Shown here: positions 3,219-4,292 of the stretch, piece by piece
Numbering within the stretch: the first letter of the stretch is position 1
How the letters are laid out: every line of letters begins with the position of its first letter
Source of the DNA: a virus
Length of the DNA stretch: 20,296 bases
IMG/VR virus record: IMGVR_UViG_3300021964_000726
Span: 1 to 20,296 of that record
Reading direction: 5' to 3' (one strand)
Notes under the pieces: model-generated
Told to the model about the DNA's origin: nothing
The model's database searches: none
The model's input: only the letters and a program-made list of their open reading frames with translations
Made by a program: the position numbers and the translations under genes

Positions 3219-3383
3219 ATGCAAATAACTGAATTTAATAAAATGGTATGTGAACGAGAAGGTGGAAAAGAGGAATTAAGCATTGCACAGATTGCAGAAG
3301 TAATAAAAATAGCGGATGAATTAACTAATGGTATTTTATATAAAATCATAGATTTAATGGCAACACCACAAAAAGATGTTTAA
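3219..3383 (+). CDS. Small helical hypothetical protein (54 aa)
   Basis: A 54-residue frame begins 15 bases after the previous stop with a good ribosome site (AAAAAGG). The product (MQITEFNKMVCEREGGKEEL...) looks entirely helical, with a hydrophobic face IAQIAEVIKIADELTNGILYKIIDLM, so it may be a small dimer or a partner protein. It overlaps the holin-like gene by 8 bases, so the two are likely translated together. No homolog is recognised. A role as a small lysis regulator is suggested only by position. Confidence 0.55.
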   Translation: MQITEFNKMVCEREGGKEELSIAQIAEVIKIADELTNGILYKIIDLMATPQKDV

Positions 3384-3828
3384 TATACTTGGTAATCTTG
3401 TCGGCTCGGTTGTTGGAACAGTTGGGGATGTTGTTAAACGTGATCAACAGATAAAAAAAATCAAAGAAAAAGGTAAGCTTGATATAGAACAAGCTAAAAT
3501 TGATCTTGATGTGGCTAAATTAAAGGCACAAATTAAACAACAAGAAACACAAGCTGCCAACGATATGACGTATGATATGCAAGTACTTAAAAATAGGCGT
3601 GAATCGTTCATTGATGAGTTTATTATTCTAGGTTTTTTTATTATTATGATATTAACATTTATTCCAGCTACACAGACAACAATGGCAGCAGGATGGAAAG
3701 CCCTTAATGACACTGCCTGGTGGTTTGAGTTTGGCATTGTTGGAATACTTGTCTCAACACTTGGCCTAAAAGATGTATTAAGAATATTTATTGGGGGATC
3801 AATAGATAAGCTTAAAAAAAAACGGTAA
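3376..3828 (+). CDS. Holin-like membrane protein (3TM holin type)
   Basis: The 150-residue protein has a hydrophobic glycine/valine N-terminus (1-20), a charged amphipathic helix (21-75), and two convincing membrane segments (about 81-97, FIILGFFIIMILTFIP, and 115-133, WWFEFGIVGILVSTLGL). It closes with a lysine/arginine tail. This layout is like the holin family described as three-transmembrane holins of gene transfer agents and phages (GTA_holin_3TM). It would sit in the inner membrane and open it at the end of infection. It is followed at once by an L,D-transpeptidase-like enzyme, which supports the lysis assignment. The gene ends in an A9 run (3814-3822) where a -1 slip would fuse it to the downstream enzyme frame. 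There is no clear Shine-Dalgarno, and the start overlaps the upstream gene. Confidence 0.7.
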   Translation: MFNILGNLVGSVVGTVGDVVKRDQQIKKIKEKGKLDIEQAKIDLDVAKLKAQIKQQETQAANDMTYDMQVLKNRRESFIDEFIILGFFIIMILTFIPATQTTMAAGWKALNDTAWWFEFGIVGILVSTLGLKDVLRIFIGGSIDKLKKKR

Positions 3829-3843
3829 ATGACAATAAAAAAA
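3814..3843 (+). promoter_or_regulatory. Two slippery A-runs: candidate -1 frameshift sites into the lysis-enzyme frame
   Basis: A run of nine A (3814-3822) ends the holin-like gene, and a run of seven A (3837-3843) lies in the mini-frame that starts at the ATG at 3829, directly after the holin stop (TAAATG). In each frame the run reads A-AAA-AAA, a classic bacterial -1 slip heptamer. Both -1 shifts enter the same frame, which stays open from 3816 to 4292 but has no ATG, GTG or TTG before 4014. ACGTT-TTCCC-AACGT (3843-3857) could form a small hairpin abutting the second run, and GTCGAATTCGAC (3881-3892) is a perfect palindrome further on. Without a shift, the mini-frame stops after 15 codons at 3874-3876. 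No stimulatory upstream Shine-Dalgarno is obvious. Confidence 0.5.
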
Positions 3844-4292
3844 CGTTTTCCCAACGTCAGCAAAATGATAATTTAAACCAGTCGAATTCGACCCCTTTAA
3901 AATACGATCTTATTTTTGATGTTGTTGATACATTTAATAAAACCAAACTTGGTAACTTATGCATCGGTGACCAGCAATGGGAATGCATAAGCGGTAAATA
4001 TGGGAATGGAGCATTGCCGAAGGGTATGTACAAAATTAAAGATTGCTACAAATTGAAGCCCATTAAAGGTAAAACAGAATCTTATACAGGCATAGAATTT
4101 CCTTGGATAGCTAAACTTACACCTTCGTTCAAGACAGATCGCAAAAGCTTATTAATACATCCCGATGGGAACTTAGAGGGAACTAGAGGATGTATAGGGA
4201 TATGTAAAAAAGAAAATGATGTGGAAATTTATAATTTTATTATCAATGAACTTAAAAATAAAAAAGAATTGAATTTATTTGTAAATAAATAG
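3829..4292 (+). CDS. L,D-transpeptidase-like peptidoglycan enzyme, probably made by -1 frameshift
   Basis: The frame encodes a protein with the H...GC signature of L,D-transpeptidase-like folds: KSLLIHPDGNLEGTRGCIGI. In the 154-residue frameshifted product the presumed catalytic histidine and cysteine are H111 and C122. An upstream beta-rich segment, LGNLCIGDQQWECISGKYGN followed by GALPKGMYKI, matches the usual start of this fold (also seen in DUF5675 and DUF2778/Tlde1-like proteins). That segment lies before the only standard in-frame start, a TTG at 4014 with a poorly spaced GGAG, so starting there would remove half the fold. I therefore place the start at the ATG at 3829 with a -1 slip at 3837-3843. 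A holin-enzyme fusion (about 305 residues) by slipping at 3814-3822 is the alternative, as is an indel in the assembled sequence. The serine or threonine usual before GC is arginine here. The role is probably wall degradation at lysis. Confidence 0.6.

Follow-up and report, generated by a model that had tools for sequence, protein, structure and literature searches.

A conserved run of adenines at the end of a phage holin-like gene as the predicted entry into a lysis enzyme frame without a start codon

Introduction

Lysis timing is usually treated as a matter of holin kinetics. The locus described here raises the question of how a lysis enzyme is produced when its reading frame offers no start codon. 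The window, i.e., the whole analysed stretch of 20,296 nucleotides from the viral record IMGVR_UViG_3300021964_000726, carries a holin-like gene that terminates in a run of adenines, and the enzyme frame opens inside this run. An earlier note had proposed that two A-runs feed the enzyme by –1 shifts, resulting in three products: free holin, free enzyme and a holin-enzyme fusion.

Organization of the locus

The features of the locus, all on the + strand, are the following:

3376..3828, +: holin-like gene, 150 aa, ending in LKKKR* (ORF call)
3814..3822, +: putative A9 slip site, formed by the last three lysine codons of the holin-like gene and kept in relatives
3816..4292, +: enzyme frame without a start codon, predicted to be entered by a –1 frameshift or through one extra A
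3376..4292, +: predicted transframe product, a holin-enzyme fusion of 305 aa
3823..3899, +: linker, disordered in the AlphaFold model
3872..3901, +: conserved dyad TTTAAACCAGTCGAATTCGACCCCTTTAAA within the linker, with low synonymous difference and a weak predicted hairpin
3844..3867, +: candidate weak hairpin of type-1 linkers, CGTTTTCC with GCAAAATG, modestly supported
3829..3876, +: 15-codon mini-frame with an A7 (3837-3843), judged accidental

The holin-like ORF finishes with AAA AAA AAA CGG TAA, and the enzyme frame lies at –1 relative to it. When the coordinates were re-read, the earlier description proved correct: the frame is open from 3816 to 4292 without any ATG or GTG, including the part upstream of the enzyme fold, its first TTG is at 4014 (residue 67), and the A9, the ATG at 3829, the A7 and the 15-codon frame are all found where they had been placed. 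A –1 shift on the A9 would join 149 and 156 residues, which gives exactly 305 for a fusion that had been estimated at about that length.

The enzyme and the holin-like protein

By family match and motif, the enzyme is of the Tlde1/L,D-transpeptidase fold type. Tlde1_dom (PF10908) was matched in all 18 aligned family members (E up to 0.01), YkuD in 12 and DUF5675 in 10 of them, while the window enzyme taken alone reached 27 bits against PF10908, under the curated cut-off of 30.1. H115, G125 and C126, which compose the H...GC motif, are invariant in the family alignment. Murein is the target that this family membership would predict. In the AlphaFold model of the enzyme (pLDDT 82), residues 1-26 are disordered and the fold begins near residue 30; therefore, the TTG at residue 67 is not the start of an intact domain, and strands 1-3 would be lost if it were used, in agreement with the previous suggestion that this codon comes too late. 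The best fold match in the PDB was DpaA (8ikr), a weak one (E 0.0098, TM 0.41), and the matches among viral models included the annotated endolysin of Nodularia phage kac68v162 and a crAss-like L,D-carboxypeptidase. A structural model of the whole fusion reached a pLDDT of 40 and was discarded.

The enzyme domain presents pN/pS values of 0.22-0.38, and those of the part preceding the first TTG are 0.26-0.38, indicating purifying selection. Searches of named phages with the enzyme, at both DNA and protein levels, returned no match. The distant Tlde1-like enzymes carry ATG or GTG near the frame start, and the single distant relative recovered in a scan of genome contigs has its own ATG. None of six common endolysin families was found in seven records of the clade, three of them of 30-31.6 kb and some of them fragments. 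Since these families are absent, the fusion may be the only endolysin of the clade, a claim limited by the fragments and by families as yet unknown.

The holin identity of the 3376-3828 product is indirect. It has strong hydrophobic segments near residues 82-98 and 119-135 and a C-terminal tail with a charge of +5, and it shares 41% identity across 77% of its length with a protein of phage ACA1 that was annotated as holin through an HHpred match to PF11351. No direct Pfam match, including GTA_holin_3TM (PF11351), was obtained at E up to 0.001, and the protein falls into PHROG 2524, annotated as of unknown function. The holin of the most distant relative (L116) also fits a small hydrophobic protein with a charged C-terminus located beside a lysis enzyme, while in a second holin type (L105) the measure applied to the window protein detected no strong later hydrophobic segment. 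From its charge pattern, the holin would have its C-terminus, and hence the beginning of the enzyme, on the cytoplasmic face.

A related phage genome of 31.4 kb (G002) encodes a diaminopimelate epimerase (PF01678; L124 12797-13516), possibly linked to host cell-wall metabolism. It also has a nuclease of the staphylococcal nuclease family (L124 559-993) immediately before the holin gene, at a place that is occupied by other small ORFs in the window. Additionally, a small protein with an FCSE motif and no Pfam match is located behind a one-segment membrane protein (L124 14667-15137). By eye it resembles permuted NlpC/P60 enzymes, and it may be a second lysis candidate.

Conservation of the run and of its phase

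Enzyme, holin and junction DNA were used as queries against IMG/VR, and the scans returned 45 contig places besides the window, comprising 40 loci with pre-run context, run and phase as well as deduplicated contigs and distant ones. These places correspond to 28 distinct holin genes plus one distant relative. The run consists of A9 in 19 places and in the window, A10 in 21 and A11 in five, and the enzyme is entered at –1 in 38 of the 45. The bases preceding it vary, being CTT with A9 and CTA, GTA, CGA or AGA with A10, and the run ends at the same codon boundary whatever the pre-run base; therefore, the enzyme frame stays at –1. In L105 and L106, A11 is followed by GG and the –1 relation is kept, as it is, with A10, in L116, whose holin and enzyme are 65% and 42% identical and whose linker is unrelated to the others. 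The layout is common to two holin sequence types that are about 40% identical to each other.

The exceptions to the –1 relation are four contigs with A9 after CTA, one A short (the L010 group), and three places with A11 after CTA, in which holin and enzyme form one open frame (G005, G006 and one end of G002); in G005 and G006 this frame runs for 317 codons, counted from the ATG to where the enzyme match ends. Apart from these, the downstream frame lacks its own start and lies in a fixed phase. In close relatives, ordinary start codons are not found at any conserved position of the enzyme frame, the only such codon being a private linker ATG in L010/L011. Thus, the alignment of relatives that had been called for sustains the central proposal of the earlier note, namely that the A-rich 3' end of the holin gene leads into the enzyme frame and gives a fusion: the run near the holin end and the missing enzyme start are both kept. 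Because this layout recurs in related loci from many metagenome projects, the combination of A-run, absent start and –1 relation is confirmed as more than a chance product of the sequence. Prophage holins used as outgroup (29-43% identical) have no run, end normally and are followed by no enzyme frame. As the distant enzymes have ordinary starts, the run and the fusion belong to this clade of uncultured phages. In the ORF list no gene of lysis type lies near L025, which shares AAAAAAAAACAGTAAATGAC by pattern; this locus was set aside.

The run appears to be conserved beyond what codon usage would give. In the run columns all 54 lysine codons are AAA (AAG 0/54), versus 53 AAG among the 234 lysine codons of nine other conserved holin columns (Fisher p ~7e-6); this statistic ignores kinship, and since the sequences are related by descent it is supportive rather than a clean test. 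The overall AAA share of lysine codons in long ORFs is 0.70-0.79.

The linker between holin and enzyme

Two interchangeable DNA types of linker were found in the relatives, with lengths that differ by multiples of three, and the enzyme frame is open through the linker everywhere. Its predicted translation is based on this open frame and on the three-base length steps. A codon-position signature is absent from the type-1 linker (pS 0.13, pN 0.16), which counts against the reading, and type 2 is weakly constrained; what is conserved in the linker is the DNA and not the protein. The dyad TTTAAACCAGTCGAATTCGACCCCTTTAAA has a synonymous difference of 0.11, against about 0.5-0.8 on either side; it is kept before different enzyme subtypes and missing in L116. 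Since the same linker precedes different enzyme subtypes and follows two holin types, one possible reason for its conservation at the DNA level would be the exchange of modules at a shared joint.

How the enzyme frame may be entered

The reading that we consider likely is that slippage on the A-run, most likely by RNA polymerase adding one A, produces a minority of holin-enzyme fusion beside plain holin. The murein enzyme would then be made solely as a C-terminal extension of the holin-like protein. In a minority of decoding events, slippage would occur on the 9-11 adenines that precede the holin stop, most likely at the level of transcription, and the extra A would carry translation past the holin stop, through the disordered linker and into the Tlde1/L,D-transpeptidase-type domain. 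The outcome would be much plain holin and less fusion, with the tethered enzyme held inside and reaching the murein when the holin triggers.

Slippage of RNA polymerase on A-runs is a well-known phenomenon (PMC5009743, PMC4256274). Such insertions usually add one A, and their frequency grows exponentially as the run lengthens (PMC5574713), and an A11 in tssM of Citrobacter rodentium slips at about 20% (PMC4256274), both of which favour the RNA polymerase. The same conclusion is favoured by the length of the run, which is always at least 9, while ribosomal slippage on A_AAA_AAA needs 7; by the phase of the L010 group, for which a –1 shift of the ribosome would not suffice on its own; and by the lack of a stimulator common to the loci.

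Ribosomal –1 frameshifting on A_AAA_AAA would make the same fusion, and we regard it as unlikely, though it may contribute a share of the product. The heptamer is in phase before CGG in the –1 loci, and the A11 plus GG of L105 and L106 contains A_AAA_AAG. A hairpin of type-1 linkers, CGTTTTCC/GCAAAATG, has 86% of its cells paired and three pairs changed on both sides, i.e., some covariation; however, it was not chosen by RNAalifold and is absent from the other linker types. No conserved structure or pseudoknot was found at the usual spacing of 5-9 bases downstream, where RNAalifold gave –5.5 and –5.3 kcal/mol with little covariation. A downstream RNA stimulator was thus rejected, given that these structures are weak and that the two unrelated linker types and L116 have only the run in common. 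A run that always exceeds the seven bases needed, and the other phase of the L010 group, also speak against the ribosome.

The second run had been assigned a similar role, a shift in the mini-frame being expected to release a soluble enzyme of 154 residues. Only the run at the holin end proved to be conserved: L003, L004, L005 and L006 are among the loci that lack the A7, and L056, L094 and L116 have lost the ATG at the holin stop. This route was therefore rejected, and of the three products foreseen, holin and fusion stand as predictions while the free enzyme does not.

Variation in run length

Run length may vary between genomes, or the differences may stem from errors of assembly or PCR. 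The 961-base sequences of L045 (A11, in frame) and L031 (A10, out of frame) match completely but for one gap. The two ends of the 31,391-base contig of G002 have about 139 bases in common, a stretch that includes the A-run, and differ there only by A10/A11; this genome is probably complete and was left unclosed owing to the run. In the L010 group an A9 stands where A10 is usual, and an ATG in the enzyme frame occurs in the linker 47 bases past the run. This private ATG is perhaps a compensation for the wrong phase, a possible escape from dependence on slippage, and expression in this group may differ from that of the other loci.

These three cases would also fit phase variation at the genome level, in which replication slippage leaves some virions encoding the fusion and others the holin only, with no slippage in expression. 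We give this explanation a low probability, about one chance in five being our estimate. Homopolymer counts in assemblies can be wrong, and an out-of-frame arrangement in 38 of 45 places would be odd if the in-frame genome were the sole source of a needed enzyme. Moreover, such variation is compatible with slippage during expression rather than exclusive of it.

Translation of the enzyme alone, whether it began at a non-canonical codon or followed re-initiation at the stop of the holin gene (TAAATG), is improbable. An ATG overlaps the stop in most loci, and the L010 group has its in-frame linker ATG. However, the overlapping ATG is in the holin phase and not in the enzyme phase, it is missing in the three loci named above, and the frames that it opens stop after 4 to 15 codons. 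Inspection of the alignment revealed no codon of the ATA, ATT or CTG type kept at one position of the enzyme frame, and the all-AAA run would be left unexplained. Finally, a sequencing or assembly error concealing an in-frame fusion or a normal start is very improbable, since, although the run is a homopolymer whose length differs among contigs, the same –1 phase is kept in independent projects with differing pre-run bases, and errors would not track codon context.

Implications and comparison with known systems

If the slippage reading is true, enzyme output would by construction be tied to holin output as a fixed fraction, with both in one molecule, and slippage could set how much lysis enzyme is made. 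More tentatively, and with slightly less than even confidence, we propose that the only endolysin of the clade is a slippage product and that the share of extra-A transcripts sets the ratio of plain holin to tethered enzyme; the homopolymer would then act as a lysis timer, and its length could also drift between genomes. The absence of a start in the enzyme frame also explains why the endolysin of these genomes is missed or cut short by gene-calling programs.

A literature search on frameshifted lysis genes, subscription papers lying outside its scope, retrieved no such case, and the accessible part of a 2016 recoding review mentions neither holin nor endolysin. The earlier note knew of no lysis timer of this kind, but the fusion as such has a precedent: a natural in-frame holin-endolysin fusion has been described in Clostridium sporogenes (TpeE family), for which tethering and C-terminal flipping were proposed (PMC9527704). 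That fusion and the one predicted here share an N-terminal holin and a C-terminal endolysin; however, the former is one uninterrupted frame, made of other holin and enzyme families in a Gram-positive background (PMC9527704), while in most of the present genomes holin and enzyme lie in different frames at the junction, plain holin being predicted alongside the fusion. As a variant, a lysis enzyme that is accessible solely by way of a conserved slip site appears to be new.

The phage enzymes with Tlde1, DUF5675 or YkuD domains, such as the kac68v162 endolysin and the crAss-like L,D-carboxypeptidase, have the fold and the H...GC motif in common with the window enzyme, but they are annotated as stand-alone proteins or as parts of long ones, whereas here the domain has no start of its own. 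The layout resembles that of tssM in C. rodentium, where an A-run near the stop results in a short and an extended product, both needed (PMC4256274), although tssM is a bacterial secretion gene in which slippage was shown experimentally, while here it is predicted from sequence. Conserved –1 access to a C-terminal extension is likewise known from the frameshifts of phage tail assembly chaperones (G/GT) and capsid genes, which, unlike the lysis locus described here, are structural genes with ribosomal slip sites; if the present reading is true, lysis genes would join this short list of conserved phage frameshifts.
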